Part shown: positions 21,427-33,107 of the stretch, piece by piece | Position numbering within the stretch: the first letter of the stretch is position 1 | Layout of the letters: each line of letters starts with the position of its first letter | Assembly (NCBI GenBank): GCA_030605835.1 | Contig: JAUWHO010000023.1 | Coordinates: 124,001-188,000, forward strand | DNA: 64,000 bases | Origin: Candidatus Zixiibacteriota bacterium | GTDB lineage: Bacteria; Zixibacteria; MSB-5A5; DG-27 | Direction: 5' to 3' | Program-made: the position numbers and the translations under genes | The notes under the pieces: model-generated | Seen by the model: only the letters and a program-made list of their open reading frames with translations | Told to the model about the DNA's origin: nothing | Databases searched by the model: none

Positions 21427-22881
21427 TTACAGGAGAAAGGAAAAGATGGAGTCCTTTGCGAGCGACAGCCACCGCTCCGGCAGTATCCCCAATTGGAGGG
21501 TGCCCCAGGCGGCGATAATCAGAGCTATGATAGCGGGGACGGAATAAGTGAAGTAGAACTTCTCGGCCGGCTTGGCGCTCATGTACATCACCACCACAAC
21601 GCGGATATAGTAGTAAACCGAAATCAGGCTGTTCAAAACCCCTATCACCGCCAGGGTGACATAACCTTGCGAGACCGCCGCGGAGAAGACATAGAACTTC
21701 CCCACGAAACCGGCGGTGGGTGGGATCCCCGCCAGTGACAGCATAAACAGCGTCATCGCTAAAGCTCCCAGCGGATATTTGCTGGCCAGCCCGGCATAAT
21801 CGGAGAAATTGAGGTTGTCCTCACCTCTTTTCCCGAAGACTATGAGGATACTGAAGGCGCCGACGTTCATCAAGGTATAGACCAGAAGGTAGAACATCGC
21901 CGCCGAGGTTCCCACGGGACCACCGGCAACCACCGCCACTAAGACATACCCGGCATGGGCGATACTGGAGTAGGCCAACATCCTTTTGAGGTTGTTCTGA
22001 GCGATGGCTACGATGTTGCCGACCGACATAGTGACGACCGCGACAATCCAGAGTAGATTCGTGAATTCCGGCGAGCTAGTATTGAAAGCATATATGACGA
22101 TACGCAACAGCACCGCAAATCCCGCAGCTTTGGGACCCGCCGACATGAAGGCGGTGACGGAGGTGGGCGCGCCCTGGTATACATCCGGCACCCACATGTG
22201 AAACGGAACAAAGGCGACCTTGAAAAAGAATCCTATCAAGACCAGGACTATGCCTATTAGACCGATAATCGATAAGGACTCCTGACCTGAAAGAAGGGCG
22301 AATATCTCCCCGAGGTTGGTGGTGTGGAAATTCCCATACAATAGGGCGATGCCATAAAGGAGAAATCCGCTGGCGAAGGCTCCTATAAGGAAATATTTTA
22401 AAGAAGCCTCGTTGGAACGGGGGTCGGTCCGGTTGAAGCCCGCCAGAACGTAAAGTGCTATCGACATCACCTCCAGACCCAGGAAGATCGAGATCAAATC
22501 CAGGCTGGAGGCCATAATCATCATCCCCACGGTGGAGAGCAGAATCAAGAAGAAATACTCCGCGTGATAGATTCCCTCCCTTTTGAGGTAATCGACTGAG
22601 ATCAAAGTCACCAACAGAGCGCCCAAAAGGAAGATGAATTTGAAGAACAGGGCGAAGTTGTCGGAGGTGACACTCTCGCCGAAGGCAAAGATCGTTTCTC
22701 CCCAGAGGCTGCCGACGGCATAGAATCCAGCCAGGAGGCCGGCAAAGCATATGATCGGAATGCCGAGGCGCCATCTCTTCGGCGCAAACAGCTCTACAAA
22801 GATGATAACAAAAGCCGTGGCTATCAGTATTATCTCCGGCAGGATGGCGCCTATGTTAATCGAAGGTATCGGTATTGACAT
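21427..22881 (-). CDS. nuoN: NADH-quinone oxidoreductase subunit N
   Basis: NuoN is one of the three large antiporter-like subunits of the complex I membrane arm. The 484-residue protein has ~14 hydrophobic helices. The conserved Glu region (GLEVMSIALYVLAGFNR), the Lys in FFFKVAFVPFHMWVPDVYQG and the segment AYSSIAHAGY are typical. It is the last gene of the nuo operon, after the small glutaredoxin-like gene that separates it from nuoM, an unusual insertion. Confidence 0.96.
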   Translation of the reverse strand: MSIPIPSINIGAILPEIILIATAFVIIFVELFAPKRWRLGIPIICFAGLLAGFYAVGSLWGETIFAFGESVTSDNFALFFKFIFLLGALLVTLISVDYLKREGIYHAEYFFLILLSTVGMMIMASSLDLISIFLGLEVMSIALYVLAGFNRTDPRSNEASLKYFLIGAFASGFLLYGIALLYGNFHTTNLGEIFALLSGQESLSIIGLIGIVLVLIGFFFKVAFVPFHMWVPDVYQGAPTSVTAFMSAGPKAAGFAVLLRIVIYAFNTSSPEFTNLLWIVAVVTMSVGNIVAIAQNNLKRMLAYSSIAHAGYVLVAVVAGGPVGTSAAMFYLLVYTLMNVGAFSILIVFGKRGEDNLNFSDYAGLASKYPLGALAMTLFMLSLAGIPPTAGFVGKFYVFSAAVSQGYVTLAVIGVLNSLISVYYYIRVVVVMYMSAKPAEKFYFTYSVPAIIALIIAAWGTLQLGILPERWLSLAKDSIFSFLL

Positions 22882-22912
22882 GCTACACCTGTGGGGAAGC
22901 TAGATCCTCAGT

Positions 22913-22937
22913 GACGGCGACCGCTGTCTCAAAAATC
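22913..22937 (-). promoter_or_regulatory. Possible bacterial SECIS hairpin
   Basis: Right after the second TGA of the glutaredoxin-like gene, the transcript GACAGC-GGUC-GCCGUC (22928-22913) can fold: GC/GC and GAC/GUC pairs with one A-C mismatch and a GGUC loop, the same loop as E. coli fdhF. Fifteen bases separate the in-frame UGA from the loop. Weak G-U and A-U pairs can extend the base. The stem is short, so this is only suggestive. Confidence 0.4.
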
Positions 22938-23153
22938 TCAACCTCCGCCTTGAAATCCGACCGCGATACTGTTACCATCCACGATCACCGGGACCAGACG
23001 TTTCCCGGTCAACTCCACCACTTTCTTCTTGGCCTCTGGTTTCTCGTAAACGTTGATCTCCTCGAAACAGACATTCCATTTCTTCAGATCCTCCTTGGCG
23101 GCCACGCAGTAAGGACAGCCGGTCTTTGTGTATATGGTGACCTTCTTATCCAT
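22929..23153 (-). CDS. Glutaredoxin-like protein, candidate C-terminal selenoprotein (Uxx-star type)
   Basis: This small thioredoxin-fold protein has the redox motif CPYC (TKTGCPYCVAAKEDLKKW), the cis-Pro segment VPVIVDGN and the GF-glycine end VGFQGGG. A plain reading stops at TGA 22940-22938 (71 residues). The frame, however, continues GAT-TTT-TGA, so reading the first UGA as selenocysteine would give a tail Gly-Gly-Gly-Sec-Asp-Phe-stop. I recall a glutaredoxin-like (seleno)protein family named for exactly such a Sec-x-x-stop end. A small hairpin follows. The start is ATG 23153 (GAGG 9 bases upstream); GTG 23159, overlapping the nuoM stop, is an alternative. It lies between nuoM and nuoN, suggesting a redox link to respiration. 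Gene certain; Sec recoding tentative. Confidence 0.75.
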
Positions 23154-23155
23154 TG

Positions 23156-24769
23156 TCACTGCCCTCGGTGTATTTCCCCACCCCCAAAACTGTGGGTTGA
23201 AACCTCCAATTGAGATTCGTCAATCTGAAAATCTCTTCTCGGTTGCACTTGTGGCATTACCTCTTCGACCCGGTATTTCTCATTGACGGTCTCCATCAAT
23301 TTGGCGACGGAGGCCTCCATTCTGCTTGTAAAAGCGGAGGGGTATATTCCGATCAGGAAAATGACTATGACTATCGGAACCAGGATCAGTTTTTCTCTGA
23401 GCGACAGATCCTTCAACTTCTGATTTTCCGGTTTGTCCACTTTCCCGAACATCACCCGCTGATACATCCATAACATATATACCGCTGCCAAAATTATGCC
23501 GGTGGCCCCGAAGGCAGCATATAGCCAGTTCTCGCGGAAGGTCCCCAGGAGGATTAAAAACTCTCCCACGAAGCCGTTGGTCCCCGGAAGTCCGATCGAG
23601 GATAAAGTCACAATCATGAAGAAGGCGGCAAAGACCGGCATCACCTTGCTTATGCCTCCGAAGTCGCTTATCAGGCGGGTGTGGCGACGCTCGTATAGCA
23701 TACCCACGAGTAAGAACAACGCTCCGGTCGATATGCCGTGACTCAGCATCTGAAGGATAGAACCCTCTAAGCTCTGCATGTTCAGAGCAAAAAGCCCCAA
23801 CATCACGAAGCCGAGATGCGATACCGAAGAATACGCCACCAGGCTTTTGACATCCTTCTGCACCAGGGCCACGAAGGCCCCATATATTATGCCTATTATG
23901 GCCAGGATCGAGAACAGCGGGATGAAGTGAATGGTCGCTTCCGGGAAGAGGGGGAAACAGAATCTCAGGAAACCGTAAGCGCCCATTTTCAACAAAACCG
24001 CCGCCAGAAGAACGCTCCCGGCGGTGGGAGCCTCGACGTGGGCGTCGGGGAGCCAGGTATGCAGTGGCCACATCGGGACTTTGATGGCGAAGGCCAAAGC
24101 GAAAGCCAAAAACATCCAGATCTGATAATTGAAAGGTATCTGTATGCCCTGATAATCTAATAGGTTAAATGTCGCCACCCCGGTATAGGATTGATTGACG
24201 AAATAGAGCGCCAGAATGGCCACTAACATCAAGAGACTACCGGTCATCGTAAAGAGAATGAATTTCACGGCGGCATATATCCTCCGGGGTCCGCCCCAGA
24301 CGCCGATGATGAAATACATCGGTATGAGCATCGCCTCCCAGAAGACGTAGAACAGAAATAGGTCTAACGAGACGAAAACCCCTATCATCCCGGTCTCCAG
24401 CGCCAGGATCGATATCATGAATCCCTTCACTTTTTCGGTGACGGCGTTGTAGCTGGACCATATAGCGATTGGCGTTAAGAACGTCGTCAAGAGCACCAGA
24501 AAGAGGCTTATGCCGTCGATCCCCATGTGGTATCCCATTCCCAGACTGGGGATCCAGGAATAGAGCTCCACAAACTGCATATCGCCGGTGCCGGGATCGA
24601 ATTTGAAATACAAGAAAAGCGACACCAGGAAGGTGACCAGGGAGGTGAACAGCGCCACGTTTCTTACAAGGAGTTGGCGATTCTTATCGACCAACAGGAG
24701 TAGAACAATCCCCAGAGCCGGGAGGAAGGTCACTACTGTCAGGATCGGAAAACTCTCACCCATATTCAT
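23156..24769 (-). CDS. nuoM: NADH-quinone oxidoreductase subunit M
   Basis: NuoM is the second antiporter-like proton-pumping subunit. The 537-residue protein has ~14 transmembrane helices, the conserved Glu in [17 protein letters not shown], and the Lys/His regions [20 protein letters not shown] and [14 protein letters not shown]. It is normal in length with a hydrophilic C-terminal tail of ~50 residues. The stop overlaps or touches the start of the glutaredoxin-like gene, so the two are translationally linked. Confidence 0.97.
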
Positions 24770-24776
24770 TCAGGTC

Positions 24777-26696
24777 CTATCTGAGCATGAAGTATCCCAG
24801 GATGATGACCACCCCGACTACGAATCCCAGGGCGTAGTTGCGAACATAACCGGTCTCGAACCTCCTTATCAGATTCCCGATCAGACCCACCAGCTTGGCA
24901 AGCCCATTGGCGCTACCATCAATCACTATTACGTCGAAGAACCTCCAGCAGATTATTGCGAAGAATTTGAGAGGTTGAACGATCACGGCGTTATATATTT
25001 CATCCACATAGTATTTGTTGTAAATGAGGGTGTAGATGGAGCGATATCTCTCAGCCAGCTTCTTGGGAAGCTCGGTCTTCTTGATGTAGAAGGTATAAGC
25101 TAAATAGACCCCTCCCAGGGCGATCAGAACTGAGATTATCATCATCAACAGCTCCACTCCTCCGGAGTGGTGAGTTTCGACCGCTTTCGACACCTGTCCA
25201 AAAGATGGTTCCAAGAACTTCTCTATGCGGTTGCCGCCGCCCAACAGATGCGGAATGCCGACGTAACCTCCTATGACTGCGAGAACTGCCAGTATGATCA
25301 GAGGTACGGTCATTTTATTCGGGGACTCGTGGGCACGCTTCTCAAGCTCCGGAGTCAGACGCGACTTCCCATGGAAGGTCAAAAACAGGAGTCGGAACAT
25401 ATAGAAGGCGGTCATGAGGGCTCCCGCCGCTCCCAGAAACCAGAGGAGAAAATGCCCCTGCGCACTGGAGAATGCCTTCCAGATGATCTCGTCCTTACTG
25501 AAAAATCCCGAGAAACCGGGGATGCCCGCGATGGCCAGAGTTCCCATCAGGAAAGTCCAGTAAGTGACCGGCATATGTTTCTTGAGGCCGCCCATCTTCT
25601 GGATATTGAGCTCGCCGGCTAGGGCGTGCATCACCGAGCCAGCACACAAAAAGAGCAGCGCCTTGAAGAAGGCATGGGTCATCAGGTGGAAGATGCCGGC
25701 ACCGAAGGCTCCCACTCCGCAGGCCAAAAACATATAGCCGAGCTGGCTTATGGTGGAATAAGCTAAGACTCTCTTGATATCATTCTGCATCAAGCCGATG
25801 GAGGCCGCATACAGGGCGGTGACGCCACCGACGATGGCCACCACCAGCATGGAGACCGGTGCCATCAGAAACAGAGCCGACAGACGTGCCACCATATATA
25901 TGCCCGCAGTCACCATGGTGGCGGCGTGAATCAGTGCCGACACCGGCGTGGGTCCCTCCATAGCATCGGGCAACCAGACGTAAAGTGGGATTTGTGCTGA
26001 TTTCCCTACCGCTCCGAGAAATAACAACAAGGTAATGGCGGTGGCGGCGGCGCCTCCGTATTGTAACACCTCAGGTGCTCTTTCCAAGATCGGGGTGAAA
26101 TAAACGGTGCCGAAGATGACGAAAGTCAACATTATCCCCAGTGCAAAACCGAAATCCCCGATTCTGTTGACGATGAAGGCCTTTTTGCCGGCATCGGCGG
26201 CGCTCTTCTTCTCATACCAGAAGCCGATCAAAAGGTAGGAACATAAGCCCACCGCCTCCCAGCCGATGTACATTAGAAGGAGGTTGTCAGCCAGGACTAA
26301 CAGTAACATTGAGAAGGTGAACAGATTCAGGTAGCTGAAGTAGCGCACATATCCGGGGTCATCGTGCATGTATCCGGTCGAATATATATGTATGAGGAAG
26401 GCCACCCCGGAGACTACCAGAATCATCAAAGCCGAGAGGGGGTCAACTAAGAAGCTGAACGCAGTCTTGAAACTGCCGGAGACCACCCAGGGGAAGAGAA
26501 CTTTCTCGAAATGCCTCGCTTCGGGAGCCAGTTTCAAGAGGTCAAGGAAGACTCCCAGCGAGACCAGAAATGATAGCCCCACGCTCCCGCAGGCAATCAG
26601 ATTGATCAAACCCCTTTTGAACTTCCAGCCAAAAAGCCCGTTTAAGAGGAACCCCAGAAGTGGAAAAAGCAGAACTAACCAGACTTTATCGAGCAT
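24777..26696 (-). CDS. nuoL: NADH-quinone oxidoreductase subunit L
   Basis: NuoL is the distal antiporter-like subunit with the long lateral helix. The 639-residue product has ~16 hydrophobic helices, with the signature segments LLMYIGWEAVGLCSYLLIGF, KSAQIPLYVWLPDAMEGPTP, HAATMVTAGIYMVAR and AYSTISQLGYMFLA, and the amphipathic C-terminal part. It is separated from nuoK by 96 bases that include a repeated motif. Confidence 0.97.
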   Translation of the reverse strand: MLDKVWLVLLFPLLGFLLNGLFGWKFKRGLINLIACGSVGLSFLVSLGVFLDLLKLAPEARHFEKVLFPWVVSGSFKTAFSFLVDPLSALMILVVSGVAFLIHIYSTGYMHDDPGYVRYFSYLNLFTFSMLLLVLADNLLLMYIGWEAVGLCSYLLIGFWYEKKSAADAGKKAFIVNRIGDFGFALGIMLTFVIFGTVYFTPILERAPEVLQYGGAAATAITLLLFLGAVGKSAQIPLYVWLPDAMEGPTPVSALIHAATMVTAGIYMVARLSALFLMAPVSMLVVAIVGGVTALYAASIGLMQNDIKRVLAYSTISQLGYMFLACGVGAFGAGIFHLMTHAFFKALLFLCAGSVMHALAGELNIQKMGGLKKHMPVTYWTFLMGTLAIAGIPGFSGFFSKDEIIWKAFSSAQGHFLLWFLGAAGALMTAFYMFRLLFLTFHGKSRLTPELEKRAHESPNKMTVPLIILAVLAVIGGYVGIPHLLGGGNRIEKFLEPSFGQVSKAVETHHSGGVELLMMIISVLIALGGVYLAYTFYIKKTELPKKLAERYRSIYTLIYNKYYVDEIYNAVIVQPLKFFAIICWRFFDVIVIDGSANGLAKLVGLIGNLIRRFETGYVRNYALGFVVGVVIILGYFMLR

Positions 26697-26754
26697 CCTT
26701 CACTCTGACTGCGACTACCTCCAAGCCTTCATAATCGATGAGTAGCTGGAATTG

Positions 26755-26786
26755 AATCCGTTTAATCTGCTTAATCCGCTGTGAAT
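26755..26786 (+). repeat. Small intergenic repeat motif, copy 1
   Basis: GTTTAATCTGCTTAATCC (26760-26777) followed directly by GCTGTGAAT lies between nuoK and nuoL. A copy at 49908-49953 has GTTTCATCTGCTTAATCC, then a hairpin insertion, then GCTGTGAAT. Confidence 0.55.
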
Positions 26787-26792
26787 GAACTT

Positions 26793-27098
26793 CTACCATT
26801 TCATTATGTTCAAATTATCCACGTTGACCGATTCCCTGTTTCTGAATATCATGACTATGATCGCCAGCCCAACGGCGGCCTCGGCGGCGGCGACGGTCAT
26901 CACCAAAAAGACAAAGACCTGTCCGGACAGCTCCTGCAAATGGACAGAAAAGGCGACCAAAGTGAGATTGGCGCCATTCAGCATGAGCTCGATCGACATG
27001 AGTATAATTATGGCGTTGCGCCGTACCAGGACGCCTATGACCCCAACCGTGAAAATGATTGCCGCCAAGCCTAAGTAATATCCTAACGGTACAGGCAT
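26793..27098 (-). CDS. nuoK: NADH-quinone oxidoreductase subunit K
   Basis: NuoK is a 101-residue membrane subunit of three helices. The conserved glutamates for proton transfer are in [17 protein letters not shown] (Glu ~36) and [13 protein letters not shown] (Glu ~72). Length and motif pattern match the family closely. It lies between nuoJ and nuoL as usual. Confidence 0.97.
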
Positions 27099-27157
27099 AT
27101 TCAGTATCCGGTGTTCAGCAGTTAGTGACTTCTCTTTAAGAACATAAACATCAGTGT

Positions 27158-27661
27158 CTAAAGCTTCTTCTTCGCCAGAATTACCGCTCCCACTATGGCG
27201 ACCAGCAGGAGCAATGAGGTGACCTCAAACGCAAACAGATACTTCGTGAAGAGCAGGCTCGACAGTTCGGTTATGCTGGTGAAACTGCCTTTATCTCCAG
27301 CAGGGCTGGGCCCGAAATCACCTAAGCCCGCCTGTATGAATATGCCGACCTCCAGGACTAACAGCAGCCCCAGAATTATCCCCAGCGTTCTCTGTATCTT
27401 CCTTTTCTCCGGTCCGAACTCGTCTCGTTTCAGATTCAAAAGCATGATGACGAACAAAAACAGCACCATTATGGCGCCGGCATAGACGATCACCTGCAGT
27501 GCGGCCACAAAGGTTGCCCCCATTATCGCAAATAAACCCGCAATAGAGCACAGCGTGACGATGAGGGCGATGGCGGAGGCCATGGGGTTACGAAAGGATA
27601 TCACCATTATCGCCGAGACGATCGCTGCCAGACCAAATATTATGAATGCCGCCGTAACCAT
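27158..27661 (-). CDS. nuoJ: NADH-quinone oxidoreductase subunit J
   Basis: NuoJ is a membrane subunit of five helices, here 167 residues. The conserved third helix contains [20 protein letters not shown], where the pi-bulge Gly and Tyr lie. The protein is normal in length. It is 14 bases downstream of nuoI and 59 bases upstream of nuoK. Confidence 0.95.
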
Positions 27662-27675
27662 GCTCGAAACCGCTA

Positions 27676-28188
27676 CTAGAAATACGTTTCAGGCTCCGCC
27701 CGGAACTGAAACTTCTTTTCTCTGATGAAGCCCTTAGCTCTCCCTTTCTCCAGCTTGTCGAAGTTCTCCAAAAGCATCTCCTTAGTCCACACGAAGTTCT
27801 TGCGATCGTATTGCGAGAACTCGAACTCCCAGCCCAGCCTTATGGCCTCCTCCGGACAGGCCTCTTCGCAATAGCCGCAGAATATACACCGGATTTCGTC
27901 TATTTCGTACAGTTTGGCAACTCTTTCCCCTCGCTCGTTTTCCTCCGGCTCCAAATATATACAGTCCGAGGGGCAGGCGATGGCGCACAAACCGCAGGCG
28001 ACGCACCTTTCTTCTCCGTCAGGATAGCGAGTCAGGTAGTGCAATCCCCGGTAACGCGGCGCGAATTTCGCCGGCTTGCGAGGATAATCGATGGTGATCG
28101 TTTTCCTGAAGAGGTGTTTGAAGGTGGTCGCCAGACCCTTCGGGATCGCTAAAAAGATGCTCGCAAGAATTCTAATCAAATCTGCCAC
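27676..28188 (-). CDS. nuoI: NADH-quinone oxidoreductase subunit I (2x[4Fe-4S])
   Basis: NuoI carries clusters N6a and N6b that pass electrons toward N2. Two ferredoxin motifs are intact: CVACGLCAIACPSDCI and CIFCGYCEEACPEEAI. An N-terminal amphipathic helix (RILASIFLAIPKGLATTFKH) anchors it to the membrane. The start is uncertain: GTG 28188 is just past the nuoH stop, while TTG 28209 would overlap nuoH by 14 bases; neither has a good Shine-Dalgarno. Length (~170 residues) is normal. Confidence 0.95.
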   Translation of the reverse strand: MADLIRILASIFLAIPKGLATTFKHLFRKTITIDYPRKPAKFAPRYRGLHYLTRYPDGEERCVACGLCAIACPSDCIYLEPEENERGERVAKLYEIDEIRCIFCGYCEEACPEEAIRLGWEFEFSQYDRKNFVWTKEMLLENFDKLEKGRAKGFIREKKFQFRAEPETYF

Positions 28189-28195
28189 CGCAAAA

Positions 28196-29182
28196 TCACA
28201 GGATTGCAATCAAAGCCGTCACCATGGTGTTCAAGAGCGCCAGGGGAAACAGCACCAACCACCCGAACCTCATCAGCTGGTCATATCTGAAACGGGGCAA
28301 GGTCCCCCGAATCCATATGTAGCTGAACAAAAAGAATGACATCTTCAGGAGAAACCAGACCACCGGCGGCAGAATTGGCCCACTCCAACCCCCTAAAAAC
28401 AGTGTCGCCGCCAGAGCCGAAACCGTGATCATGCTGGCGTACTCCCCCATGAAGAACATTGCGAACTTCATCCCTGCGTACTCAGTGTGATAGCCGCCAA
28501 CCAACTCCGCCTCCGCCTCCGGCAAGTCGAAGGGGATACGGTTGGTCTCAGCTATGGCGGCGGTCACAAACAAGAGAAACCCAATCGGCTGGCGGAAGAT
28601 GAACCAGTCGAGAATTCCACCACTCTGGGCTTTGACAATTTCGTTCAAAGATAGGGTGCCTGCGAGCAGCAAAACACCGATGACCGAGAGCCCCAGGGAG
28701 ACCTCATAGCTTATCATCTGGGCGGAACTGCGCAGCGCCCCCAAAAGGGAGTATTTACTGTTGGCGGACCATCCCCCCAGAACTAACCCATATATGCCCA
28801 GGGAGCTCACCGCAAAGATGAACAGAATTCCGACGTTGAGGTCCGATATCATCAAGTTGGTGGTTTCGCCCGCAACCGTTATCTGGTCTCCCACCGGGAT
28901 TACCGCGATTGCCAGAAGAGCCGGGATGAACGTCACCAGTGGTGCCAGATTATAAATGATCTTGTTGCAGCCGGCGAGAGTGAAATCCTCCTTGAAGAGA
29001 AGCTTGACGGCGTCAGCTATCGGCTGCAGCAGGCCATGATAGCCCACGAAGAGCGGTCCCTTCCTCACCTGTATGTGAGCCACCACCTTCCTCTCCGCAT
29101 AGGTCATATAGGCGACGCAGGTCATAAGCCCGGCAAATATGACCAGGACCTTGACGACCATTATGATGATCGGGATCAGCAT
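28196..29182 (-). CDS. nuoH: NADH-quinone oxidoreductase subunit H
   Basis: NuoH forms much of the quinone chamber. The 328-residue protein has eight or nine helices and the conserved AERKVVAHIQVRKGP, the Glu-rich loop IPFDLPEAEAELVGGYHTEY and GMKFAMFFMGEY. These match the family closely and no truncation is seen. It starts 3 bases after nuoG ends. Confidence 0.97.
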   Translation of the reverse strand: MLIPIIIMVVKVLVIFAGLMTCVAYMTYAERKVVAHIQVRKGPLFVGYHGLLQPIADAVKLLFKEDFTLAGCNKIIYNLAPLVTFIPALLAIAVIPVGDQITVAGETTNLMISDLNVGILFIFAVSSLGIYGLVLGGWSANSKYSLLGALRSSAQMISYEVSLGLSVIGVLLLAGTLSLNEIVKAQSGGILDWFIFRQPIGFLLFVTAAIAETNRIPFDLPEAEAELVGGYHTEYAGMKFAMFFMGEYASMITVSALAATLFLGGWSGPILPPVVWFLLKMSFFLFSYIWIRGTLPRFRYDQLMRFGWLVLFPLALLNTMVTALIAIL

Positions 29183-29185
29183 CTG

Positions 29186-31816
29186 CTAAGCCTTCGCTAT
29201 TCTCACGTAGTCCAAGGTCTTCTCTCTATCTCTCAACTTATTAACATTCTTATCCGAGTAGTTGCGAGGCAGAAACACCACCCCGGGGGGAGATTTCTTC
29301 GAGATTGCGACTTTCACCTCTAAGGCCCCTCTCGCCGATTCCACCCTGACGGTGTCGTCCTCTTTCAGCTCCAAGGACTTGGCATCTTCGGGACTGATCT
29401 CCAGATGAGCTTCCGGCGCCACCAGCATCATGTCCTCATTGTAATTAGTCAGGTGACGGAGGTGATACACCAGATCGCCGGTCAGCAATGGGTAAGGATA
29501 ATCGCTGTCACCTGAGGTGTAACTATCAAACTCGACCTCGTAAAGCGCAGGCTCGAACACCCTCTCAGCCAAGGCAACGATTCTTCCCCTGGCTCCCAAT
29601 TTGTCATAATCGAGTCCGGCAGCGTCGGAGGAAAGAGTGACCATCTCCCGGAAGATCTCCGGTGGGTTTTCGTAGACAAATTCGGCACCGAGTTTCTGGG
29701 CCAAACGTGACAGCGTTTGCCAACTCTCCCTCACACCCTTCGACGGTGCCGCCCCTCTCTGGAAGCGCTGAATCCGCCCTTCAGTGTTCGTAAATGTCCC
29801 CTCGGTTTCGACGAAGCTTGTGGCCGGCAATATCACTGTCGCCATCTTCGCGGTCTCGGTCAAGAAGAGCTCGTGGACTATAAGTAAGTCAAGCTTGCTC
29901 AGACAATCGTGAATATATTCCCAATCGGGGAAATCACAGAGGAGGTCGGATTGATAGAGGTAAAGGCCTTTGATGTTGCCCTTGCGGATTTGCTCTAACA
30001 TCTTTATGGTGTCAAAACCCTCTGCCTCCGGGAGACGGCAGTTCCACAGCGACTCGATTTTCTCCCGACCCACCTTATCCTCACGGTGCCTCCTTGCGGG
30101 CAGATAATCGGGAGTGAGCCCCCAGTTTAACGCTCCCAGATAGTTGCCGGAATCAAAGAGCAGGTTCACGCCTCCCCTGGGGTTGCCGTTGTTTTCGGTC
30201 AAAACCGCAAGATCGTTTATTGCCAGAAGACAACTGCTCCCCAGAGGCCCCTCCCACAGATCTTGACCGACAACGAACAGACAATTCTCGGATTCGGCGA
30301 GGGCTCTCGCCAGGATGCTGATCCTCTCCTCAGAGAGACCACAGCTCGCAGCTATAGTGTCGTAATTCGTCTTCTGCAGGGAGTTTGCCCAGCGCGAGAA
30401 CTGCCCCCCGCGGAACGGCCCGGCATCGCTGTAAAGCTTCTCCTTCACGATGACCTTCAGCAATCCGAGAAGCAAAGCCAACTCCCCCCCAGGCCTGTAA
30501 GTGAAATTCTGCACCGAGTAGATTCCGAAGTCCAGCTTGCGTGAATTCGCCGCCAGGACTCTGAGGCCGGCTTTGCGTATACCCCTCTTCAACCACATGG
30601 TGTAAATCGGATGGGTAGAGGCGATATCGGTTCCGATCACAAATACGGTGTCGAAGCTCGCCACCTTTTCTAAGGGAACCGACATCTTCTGCATCTCGAA
30701 GAGGATTTTCAACGCTCCCGCACCCAGGAGGCTTTTTCTGTCCCCACGGAAATCGAGGTTATTGGTGCCGACTCCCTGTCGCATCAATCTGCTGAAGAGA
30801 TAGGCCTCTTCGTTGGAGACCAGATCGGAGGCAATCCCACCCAGAGCCTCCGGCCCGCTCTCAGATTTTATCTTCTTGATCCCCTCCGCAATGAAACCCA
30901 GAGCCTCCTCCCACTGGACCTCGCGGAAAGTGTCACCTTCCTTTATCATCGGAGATTTGATGCGGTCGGGATGGTTTGAAAATACAGAGCCGAATCGACC
31001 GCGGTCACAGAGCATCCCCTCGTCGATGGAGTCATTCCTCCTGCTGGTATTTCGTATATGTCCCTTCCGCTGGTGTGACCAGGCGGTCATATTACAACCA
31101 TCGCCACACATAGGACAGACCGTGGGGGTCTGTTCACACAACCAGGGACGGATCTTATAACGGAAGTTCCGGGCCGTCAAGGCTCCCACCGGGCAGTACT
31201 CGACGGTGTTGCCGGAAAACTCGTTAAGGAACTTCTCACCTCCCGGAGCAGATATATGCGTCTTCGAGCCCCGCCCGAAAACACCTAAATCGGAGTAACC
31301 GAAAATCTCCCTGGTGATGCGAACGCAGCGGAAACAGGTGATACAGCGATTCTGATTTCGGTAGATCAACGGTCCCAGCTGAAGGTCGTCGAAGCGATAA
31401 TGGGTATCGACGATCCACCTGACTTTATCCTCACGGTAGCGGGTCATCATCGGTCCGTGATCGTAAGTCAGATCCTGGAGGTCGCATTCCCCTCCTTTGT
31501 CGCAGGTGGGGCAATCTAAGGGATGATTGGTGAGGACAAACTCCAAAACCTTTTCCCGAGCTTTTATCACCTTTTCTGTGTTGGTGTGAACCACCATCCC
31601 TTCTGCCACCGGATTCACGCAGGAGGCCACCAGCTTGGGCATCTTTTCGACCTCCACCAGACACATCCGGCAGGCGCCGACAGACTCCAAATTGGGATGC
31701 CAGCAGAAGTAGGGAATATCTATGCCGACGCTTAAGGCCGCCTCCAAGATGGTGCTATCCTTCGGGACTTCGACCTCCCGATCATCTATAGTCAATTTTA
31801 CCTTACTGTTGTCCAT
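29186..31816 (-). CDS. nuoG: NADH-quinone oxidoreductase subunit G
   Basis: NuoG is the large iron-sulfur subunit of the NADH arm. The N-terminal [2Fe-2S] domain shows CWHPNLESVGACRMC, the His-Cys cluster region is CPTCDKGGECDLQDLTYDHG, and the next ferredoxin motifs are CITCFRC and EYCPVGAL. CPMCGDGCN at residues ~237-245 is the motif for the off-path N7 cluster, which only some bacteria keep. A molybdopterin-type domain without cofactor follows to residue ~770, then a formate-dehydrogenase-like beta domain. The length is 876 residues, within the bacterial range. Confidence 0.96.
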   Translation of the reverse strand: MDNSKVKLTIDDREVEVPKDSTILEAALSVGIDIPYFCWHPNLESVGACRMCLVEVEKMPKLVASCVNPVAEGMVVHTNTEKVIKAREKVLEFVLTNHPLDCPTCDKGGECDLQDLTYDHGPMMTRYREDKVRWIVDTHYRFDDLQLGPLIYRNQNRCITCFRCVRITREIFGYSDLGVFGRGSKTHISAPGGEKFLNEFSGNTVEYCPVGALTARNFRYKIRPWLCEQTPTVCPMCGDGCNMTAWSHQRKGHIRNTSRRNDSIDEGMLCDRGRFGSVFSNHPDRIKSPMIKEGDTFREVQWEEALGFIAEGIKKIKSESGPEALGGIASDLVSNEEAYLFSRLMRQGVGTNNLDFRGDRKSLLGAGALKILFEMQKMSVPLEKVASFDTVFVIGTDIASTHPIYTMWLKRGIRKAGLRVLAANSRKLDFGIYSVQNFTYRPGGELALLLGLLKVIVKEKLYSDAGPFRGGQFSRWANSLQKTNYDTIAASCGLSEERISILARALAESENCLFVVGQDLWEGPLGSSCLLAINDLAVLTENNGNPRGGVNLLFDSGNYLGALNWGLTPDYLPARRHREDKVGREKIESLWNCRLPEAEGFDTIKMLEQIRKGNIKGLYLYQSDLLCDFPDWEYIHDCLSKLDLLIVHELFLTETAKMATVILPATSFVETEGTFTNTEGRIQRFQRGAAPSKGVRESWQTLSRLAQKLGAEFVYENPPEIFREMVTLSSDAAGLDYDKLGARGRIVALAERVFEPALYEVEFDSYTSGDSDYPYPLLTGDLVYHLRHLTNYNEDMMLVAPEAHLEISPEDAKSLELKEDDTVRVESARGALEVKVAISKKSPPGVVFLPRNYSDKNVNKLRDREKTLDYVRIAKA

Positions 31817-31823
31817 CTTCGGC

Positions 31824-33107
31824 TTACTTGAACACCGGCTTCCCCTTTACCATACAGGTTTTATTCCTTATGTGATAGTCGTATTCCTCCTGGAAATGCT
31901 CGATTGTGGAGCGCACCGCCGGCACCGCTGCATCTCCCAGAGGGCAGACAGTGTATCCCTCGATGTAATTGCATATATCCAGCAGCAACTCTACATCCCC
32001 CGACTCTCCTTTGCCGTTCTCTATCCGTTCTAAGATTTTCAGCATCCAGTAGGTCCCCTCCCGGCAGGGGGTGCACTTCCCACAGGATTCGTGCTGATAA
32101 AATCTAGTCAGCCTCCAGGCGACATTCACCATGCAGGTGGTCTCGTCCATGACGATCACTCCCGCAGAGCCGAGCATGCTGCCGGCCTCGACAACAGACT
32201 CGAAGTCGAGCTTGACATCAAGCTTGTCCGGGGTCAATATCGGGGTGGAGGAGCCACCCGGTATGACCGCTTTCAGCTCCCGGTCCTCGAAGATCCCGCC
32301 TCCGTATTCGTATATCAGCTCCCGCAGAGAGATCCCCATCGGCAGCTCGTAGTTGCCGGGACGTTTGACCTGTCCCGACAAAGAGAATATCTTCGTCCCG
32401 GTTGACTTCCGCGTCCCCATGGAGGCGAACCATTCCGCACCCTTATTGATTATGTGAGGGACGTTCGACAGGGTCTCGACGTTGTTTATCACCGTGGGGC
32501 AACCGTACAATCCCACAATTGCAGGATAAGGAGGTCTCACCCGGGAGAGTCCCCTCCTCCCCTCGATTGACTCCATCAACGCCGTCTCCTCTCCGCAGAT
32601 GTAAGCGCCGCCGCCTCGATGGAGGTGGATTGTCAAATCGTATCCGGAACCGAGGATATTCTTACCCAGGAAATTCTTCTCCTCCGCCTCGCTTAGAGCT
32701 CTCAGTAGCTGTTTTGCCCCGTAGCCGAACTCCCCGCGTATATAGATGAAGCCGGTGTGGGCCTGAACGGCGTAAGCAGCAATGATCGATCCCTCTATCA
32801 GCTGATGGGGGTCTCTTTCGAGCAGTTGCCGATCCTTAAAGGTGCCGGGCTCAGATTCGTCGGCATTTATTAAGAGATACTTGGGCTTGGGCGAATCTTT
32901 GGGGACAAAGCTCCACTTCACCCCGGCCGGGAAACCTGCTCCGCCTCGGCCTCGAAGCCCGGATTCCTTGACGATGTCGGTGACTTGATCCGGAGTATAC
33001 TCCTTGAGAACCTTGGGCAGGGCGGTATACCCACCGTTTTTCATATAAACCTTGATGGTGTCCTGACCGGGCTCGTCGATATATTTGAAGAGAATCTTCT
33101 CAGGCAT
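31824..33107 (-). CDS. nuoF: NADH-quinone oxidoreductase subunit F (FMN, NADH-binding)
   Basis: NuoF oxidises NADH with FMN and carries cluster N3. The nucleotide sites are GLRGRGGAGFPAGVKW and GGGAYICGEETALMESIEG, and N3 is bound by CGKCTPCREG with a later Cys in YTVCPLGDA. The length (427 residues) is normal. Its partner nuoE is not immediately upstream: a TPR protein gene lies between them. Confidence 0.97.
   Translation of the reverse strand: MPEKILFKYIDEPGQDTIKVYMKNGGYTALPKVLKEYTPDQVTDIVKESGLRGRGGAGFPAGVKWSFVPKDSPKPKYLLINADESEPGTFKDRQLLERDPHQLIEGSIIAAYAVQAHTGFIYIRGEFGYGAKQLLRALSEAEEKNFLGKNILGSGYDLTIHLHRGGGAYICGEETALMESIEGRRGLSRVRPPYPAIVGLYGCPTVINNVETLSNVPHIINKGAEWFASMGTRKSTGTKIFSLSGQVKRPGNYELPMGISLRELIYEYGGGIFEDRELKAVIPGGSSTPILTPDKLDVKLDFESVVEAGSMLGSAGVIVMDETTCMVNVAWRLTRFYQHESCGKCTPCREGTYWMLKILERIENGKGESGDVELLLDICNYIEGYTVCPLGDAAVPAVRSTIEHFQEEYDYHIRNKTCMVKGKPVFK

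Follow-up and report, generated by a model that had tools for sequence, protein, structure and literature searches.

A probable Uxx-star family selenoprotein gene held between nuoM and nuoN in the complex I operon of Zixibacteria

Introduction

Within the complex I operon of a Candidatus Zixiibacteriota bacterium (assembly GCA_030605835.1, contig JAUWHO010000023.1), a short glutaredoxin-like gene, here called uxx, runs into a TGA that is separated by two codons from a second in-frame stop. The locus raises two questions, namely whether the first TGA ends the protein or is read as selenocysteine (Sec), and what a glutaredoxin-like selenoprotein would be doing among the nuo genes. A sequence-only reading of the DNA had proposed a C-terminal selenoprotein encoded in a respiratory operon, and that proposal was followed up in the window (the whole stretch of 64,000 nucleotides that was analysed), in the remainder of its genome, and in related genomes.

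Results

The gene, its product and its family

The uxx gene begins with an ATG at 23153 on the minus strand and continues for 71 sense codons, followed by TGA, GAT, TTT and TGA (Table 1). The in-frame TGA, the two codons after it and the second stop are thus found as the sequence-only reading had described them, with a 3' end of GGT-TGA-GAT-TTT-TGA at 22943-22929 (minus strand). Reading through the first TGA gives the product MDKKVTIYTKTGCPYCVAAKEDLKKWNVCFEEINVYEKPEAKKKVVELTGKRLVPVIVDGNSIAVGFQGGGUDF. The Uxx-star family, which the sequence-only reading had named, exists in NCBIfam as NF041212 (Uxx-star family glutaredoxin-like (seleno)protein); the product scores 101.2 bits against this profile (cut-off 66), of which the UDF tail adds 5.8 bits (95.4 bits without it), and 61.8 bits against the Pfam glutaredoxin profile PF00462 (gathering threshold 22.9). 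The architecture of NF041212, with Sec third from the C-terminus and then a stop, is present in the product. Judged from sequence, uxx very probably encodes a Uxx-star family selenoprotein whose UGA is read as Sec. The protein itself is nothing different, being an additional member of an already catalogued family.

Table 1. Features of the uxx locus (window coordinates)
Feature	Position	Strand	Basis
nuoM, directly upstream of uxx	23156..24769	-	TIGR01972, 633.2 bits; stop codon ends 2 nt before uxx ATG
uxx, Uxx-star glutaredoxin-like selenoprotein gene (probable)	22929..23153	-	74 codons with UGA as Sec; NF041212, PF00462, homologues
CPYC active-site motif, Cys13 and Cys16	23106..23117	-	sequence, alignments
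Extended SECIS helix enclosing UGA (predicted)	22895..22946	-	57-nt fold
UGA codon for selenocysteine (Sec72, probable)	22938..22940	-	TGA at aligned position in 63/63 genes
Two-residue tail Asp-Phe after Sec (probable)	22932..22937	-	conserved +1/+2 codons; second stop next in all genes
Second stop TGA of uxx	22931-22929	-	window sequence
Apical hairpin of bSECIS, loop GGUC, stem with one A·C mismatch	22913..22928	-	past stop codon; folds and covariance model
nuoN, directly downstream of uxx	21427..22881	-	TIGR01770, 457.6 bits; 47 nt after second stop
Complex I operon stretch nuoF-G-H-I-J-K-L-M-uxx-N	21427..33107	-	NCBIfam scan, all nine nuo proteins

With the other members of NF041212 the product has in common its sequence, length, CPYC motif and Sec third from the end; specific to the Zixibacteria lineage, among the loci examined, is the nuoM-uxx-nuoN setting. 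UXX-star families 1, 2 and 3 and the HUGP/GUXX-star fusion (NF041114, NF041211, NF047338, NF045501) have equal architecture and an equal end, but uxx scores under each of their curated cut-offs (79.2 bits against 100 for family 2, NF041211) and so lies outside those subfamilies. The fold and the CPYC motif are common to the classical glutaredoxins Grx3 and NrdH (PF00462, TIGR02181, TIGR02194), from which the uxx product differs by the lack of the last helix, by its C-terminal Sec, and by scores below the equivalog cut-offs. Sec-containing glutaredoxins with a UxxC motif carry their Sec in the CxxC motif rather than at the C-terminus. A probable selenoprotein of that UxxC kind, nearest to the YruB family, is encoded elsewhere in the window's own genome by another glutaredoxin-like gene, whose active site contains an in-frame TGA (TAPN-U-ADC; G000:C48:7325-7516, loci L046 and L078), and similar UxxC genes occur in several relatives. 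In thioredoxin reductases ending in Gly-Cys-Sec-Gly, a Sec near a flexible C-terminus serves as a second redox centre. The likeness to uxx is one of analogy only, as those proteins are large flavoenzymes of unrelated fold and do not belong to the bacterial Uxx-star group.

Conservation across the UGA

A Uxx-star search of 98 genomes of the class gave matches over the cut-off in 61, and codons were compared in 63 uxx genes from the class, the window's included. All 63 have TGA at the aligned Sec codon, and all 63 have a second stop exactly three codons past it, which is TAA in 40 genes, TGA in 13 and TAG in 10. The codon at +1 is GGN (58) or GAY (5) and that at +2 is TTY (49), ATH (11) or GTN (3), with the third position free in both. 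Column entropy keeps the low-low-high pattern of coding sequence through the UGA, and stands at ~1.9 bits immediately past the second stop. This is the pattern predicted by translation to the second stop, and a plain first stop would not leave it. A second collection, of the 80 closest named loci, spans Zixibacteria, Actinobacteria, Chloroflexi, Firmicutes, Proteobacteria and others (named records belonging to the class are for the most part Candidatus Zixiibacteriota) and has TGA in 80/80, followed by two residues in 79 loci and by three in one. No Cys form at the Sec position was seen among the 63 class genes or the 80 named loci.

Because the genomes are related by descent and some loci are common to both sets, these counts are not independent events, and the argument rests on pattern, that is on the use of all three stops at the second site and on the free third positions, rather than on raw numbers. 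Homologues ending at the first TGA with other stop codons had been named beforehand as the sign that would speak against a selenoprotein; none was found, and all three stop codons occur two codons later. The UGA is almost certainly translated, to judge from these alignments, and the protein almost certainly ends two residues beyond it.

In 57 aligned proteins G12, C13, P14, V54, P55, G70 and Sec72 are invariant, and Cys16 is not. At two loci (L071 and L076, in genomes G036 and G023) CPYS replaces CPYC, with loss of the second Cys and retention of Sec. At a further locus (L082, G078:C14) uxx is split over two reading frames, through a frameshift or an assembly error, with the SECIS and the tail kept.

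The SECIS hairpin

The hairpin that the sequence-only reading had placed 15 bases from the UGA, with a GGUC loop and a short stem, is present at 22928-22913 (gacagc-GGTC-gccgtc; loop 15 nt after the UGA). Its stem is broken, with 3 bp, an A·C mismatch (at 22925) and 2 bp, giving -4.9 kcal/mol alone. Taken by itself this hairpin is no better than chance, since shuffled sequences fold as well in 120/200 cases; a 57-nt fold with a longer helix enclosing the UGA reaches -19.2 kcal/mol (z -1.9). Published bSECIS limits are a spacing of 16-37 nt, a stem of >=4 bp and an energy of <=-7.5 kcal/mol (PMC13188914), and the criteria tested also took in a G within the first two loop bases. The window's hairpin agrees with the loop rule, but its 15-nt spacing, its stem mismatch and its -4.9 kcal/mol lie outside these limits, by which it would therefore be missed if taken alone.

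The homologues present a different picture. Beyond the stop codon, at 15-26 nt from the UGA, 62/63 genes have a hairpin whose stem is 5 bp or longer and whose loop has G as its first or second base; in 59 of the 63 the stem is 6 bp or longer. Because the hairpin was picked as the best of each sequence, shuffled spacers served as the control, and they yielded a mean of 14.6 hairpins of at least 5 bp with a maximum of 23. Each of the five loop-proximal pairs occurs in several types (GC, CG, AU, UA and GU), as in compensated stems, and when the arms were redistributed among sequences 52% remained paired (maximum 61%). MAFFT misplaces some 5-base loops, so a pair count on that alignment (67%) understates pairing, and a separate count was made of hairpins aligned by their loops. 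Among the 63 genes the loop is most often GGUC (22) or CGUGU (8). The window's gene alone lacks a SECIS stem that runs uninterrupted for 5 bp or more; its congener has an unbroken stem (-7.8 kcal/mol) and also forms the outer helix enclosing the UGA (-26.3 kcal/mol).

A covariance model built from 46 relatives, the window excluded, places its best site in the 64 kb at the window's hairpin (20.7 bits, E 0.0012; next best 0.25), a modest degree of support because the score is partly a sequence match and the congener is among the 46 training sequences. The model and mismatch-tolerant folds replaced a strict search for unbroken stems, which misses the window's hairpin; the alternative fold of +0.2 kcal/mol that the strict search returned is meaningless. 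Rfam SECIS_1 (RF00031) gave no match in the window's genome and none in the control genomes either, which makes the null uninformative. The folding check upheld the SECIS for the family and failed to distinguish the window's own hairpin from chance: the evidence above chance for a SECIS in the window comes from sequences of homologues, and the window carries a flawed version of a well-conserved element.

Selenocysteine machinery

Absence of selA, selB or selC had been the other anticipated objection to a selenoprotein, and the window's genome encodes them all, with selA at 574 bits, selB at 368 bits and tRNA-Sec (selC) at 69.8 bits with anticodon TCA, together with selD at 370 bits. The selD gene, which selA adjoins, has an in-frame TGA of its own (SGAG-U-AAKF; G000:C52:34792-35715, locus L088), so selenophosphate synthetase is itself probably a selenoprotein. 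In four uxx-bearing relatives represented by draft genomes (G028, G045, G074 and G090; loci L060, L066, L063 and L023), selA, selB and tRNA-Sec were not found over the cut-offs. Each of the four has a UGA gene with an intact hairpin, so that gaps in the drafts, or loss of the machinery only very recently, make a likelier explanation than a different use of the codon. A glutaredoxin-like gene with an in-frame TGA (PD-U-MPC; G018:C31:13223-13411, L086) was also seen in a genome rated 100% complete in which selA, selB and tRNA-Sec were none of them over the cut-offs, pointing to a decayed gene, missing contigs or a diverged system.

Two alternatives to a functional Sec codon in the window can be weighed against this evidence. 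Were the TGA an ordinary stop, the protein would end ...GGG and the TGA two codons on would be there by chance; a plain ORF call does terminate at the first TGA and the window's hairpin is weak in isolation, but neither accounts for a TGA in 63/63 genes beside a second stop that varies, for conserved yet synonymously variable codons between the two stops, for conserved and compensated hairpins, for Sec machinery in the genome, or for a Sec that is invariant where even Cys16 varies, and such a coincidence is extremely improbable. A subtler suggestion is that the selenoprotein is decaying in this one genome, with the A·C mismatch lowering Sec insertion so that much of the product ends at Gly71. 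That the window alone among the 63 has no uninterrupted stem of at least 5 bp, next to a congener with a perfect stem, speaks for decay; the protein, however, is intact and 85% identical to the congener's, the enclosing helix is retained, loop and spacing are the same as in the congener, and a single base could be an assembly error, all of which make decay improbable. A C-terminal selenoprotein, as originally proposed, is the reading supported by the TGA in every class gene, by the coding pattern through it, and by SECIS-like hairpins in 62 of the 63.

Position in the complex I operon

The respiratory placement of the gene holds as well, and proves to be conserved in the lineage rather than an incident of one genome. 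At 60/64 uxx loci (the window is counted twice) nuoM, uxx and nuoN are direct neighbours on one strand, and the remaining 4/64 break off at contig ends or in runs of N, which leaves their flanks unreadable. The gene neighbourhood in candidate division Zixibacteria bacterium DG_27 is as in the congener G001. Spacing and strand suggest that uxx is co-transcribed with nuoM and nuoN. Some relatives have complex I without uxx; among the nuoM loci examined in relatives where uxx was not found, nuoM and nuoN are nearly adjacent in most, and no convincing uxx match lies between them. A second, distant NuoM paralogue was never accompanied by uxx in the loci examined. On the NuoM tree the presence of uxx needs at least 5 changes, versus 25 with shuffled labels, which is compatible with one old gain and few losses.

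Genes of the nuo operon are neighbours of uxx at 38 of the 80 named loci, all from Zixibacteria or from bins whose label says no more than bacterium, GN15, FCB group or Calditrichota; the other 42 have no nuo genes within the stretch fetched. Neighbours judged by eye are thioredoxin-like lipoproteins and triosephosphate isomerase in Thermoleophilia and, elsewhere, a metal P-type ATPase and a rhodanese-like protein (L136, L194). In Chloroflexi bacterium TumbabinsA95 (L157) a gene reading by eye as selB is directly upstream of the Uxx-star gene. Because homologues in other phyla are without nuo neighbours, the linkage is a feature of the lineage and not of the family, and the fixed position between nuoM and nuoN throughout the lineage is striking. 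In the papers searched there was no report of this linkage and none combined a selenoprotein with NuoM and NuoN; one (PMC8318568) has both Zixibacteria and selenoprotein. The linkage may already have been described, most likely in Haft and Tolstoy 2025 (PMC12013261), a paper on the neighbourhoods of selenoprotein genes, to judge by its title, which a review cites for the UXX-star families.

Predicted structure

The predicted structure of the product (pLDDT 91, Sec modelled as Cys) suggests a minimal glutaredoxin fold, beta-alpha-beta-alpha-beta-beta, from which the final helix is absent. The best Foldseek match is a GSSG-bound glutaredoxin, 4tr0 (TM 0.79), and the profile sets the Gly-Gly-Sec end on the GGC segment of the 4tr0 protein. 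In glutaredoxins the GGC segment is part of the glutathione-binding site. Given this alignment, the tail may reach the CPYC site, with Sec72 in place of glutathione or of the second Cys, a placement that gains support from the invariance of Sec72 and C13 and from the Ser at Cys16 in two relatives.

Discussion

If uxx follows the standard bacterial system, SelB with Sec-tRNA-Sec would read the UGA with help from the stem-loop that follows closely on the stop, between it and nuoN. The Gly-rich Sec tail may then substitute for the missing helix and glutathione site, and Cys13 and Sec72 may act as a selenenylsulfide/thiol-selenol pair towards a partner, reducing or exchanging its disulfides, persulfides or metals; for this part of the scheme the chances are about even. 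Co-transcription at one fixed place between nuoM and nuoN is the reason for supposing that uxx has a part in assembling, repairing or protecting complex I against redox damage, or at least in stress linked to respiration, a supposition with somewhat worse than even odds. The product is most likely a thiol oxidoreductase of the Cys/Sec type that is expressed together with complex I, a link drawn from position.

What such a protein does with its selenium, and whether its address matters, can be read in other ways. A genuine selenoprotein might use Cys13 and Sec72 as a ligand or carrier for a metal or metalloid and not as a thiol-disulfide enzyme, in line with the suggestion in PMC13188914 that UXX-star proteins may bind metal through their Sec, and with neighbours elsewhere among the phyla that resemble a metal P-type ATPase and a rhodanese; disulfide-active glutaredoxins nevertheless have this fold and the CPYC motif, and no metal genes adjoin uxx in the Zixibacteria setting, so a metal role, though to be taken seriously, is rather unlikely. 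The operon position may also have no functional meaning, an old insertion having been kept by descent for a useful level of expression. As few as five gains or losses on the NuoM tree leave room for one old gain, and in other phyla the gene lies elsewhere; set against this, all loci with readable flanks, from about ten groups of family level, have the gene in this position, and loss is tolerated, nuoM and nuoN then being nearly adjacent, with relocation not seen. An insertion kept in this way is a serious possibility, if a little short of an even one. The more specific proposal, that the Uxx protein of Zixibacteria, encoded between the genes of two proton-pumping subunits, works with selenium as an accessory factor for complex I, acting in assembly, redox repair or regulation, is offered tentatively, as possible but on balance unlikely.

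Standard ORF calling ends the uxx product at the UGA and so loses one invariant residue. In the material examined, the fixed nuoM-uxx-nuoN order provides a definite partner that can be tested for the uncharacterised Uxx-star family, and suggests that selenium and respiratory complex I are linked. A role as accessory factor, if true, would tie respiration in these bacteria to selenium supply.
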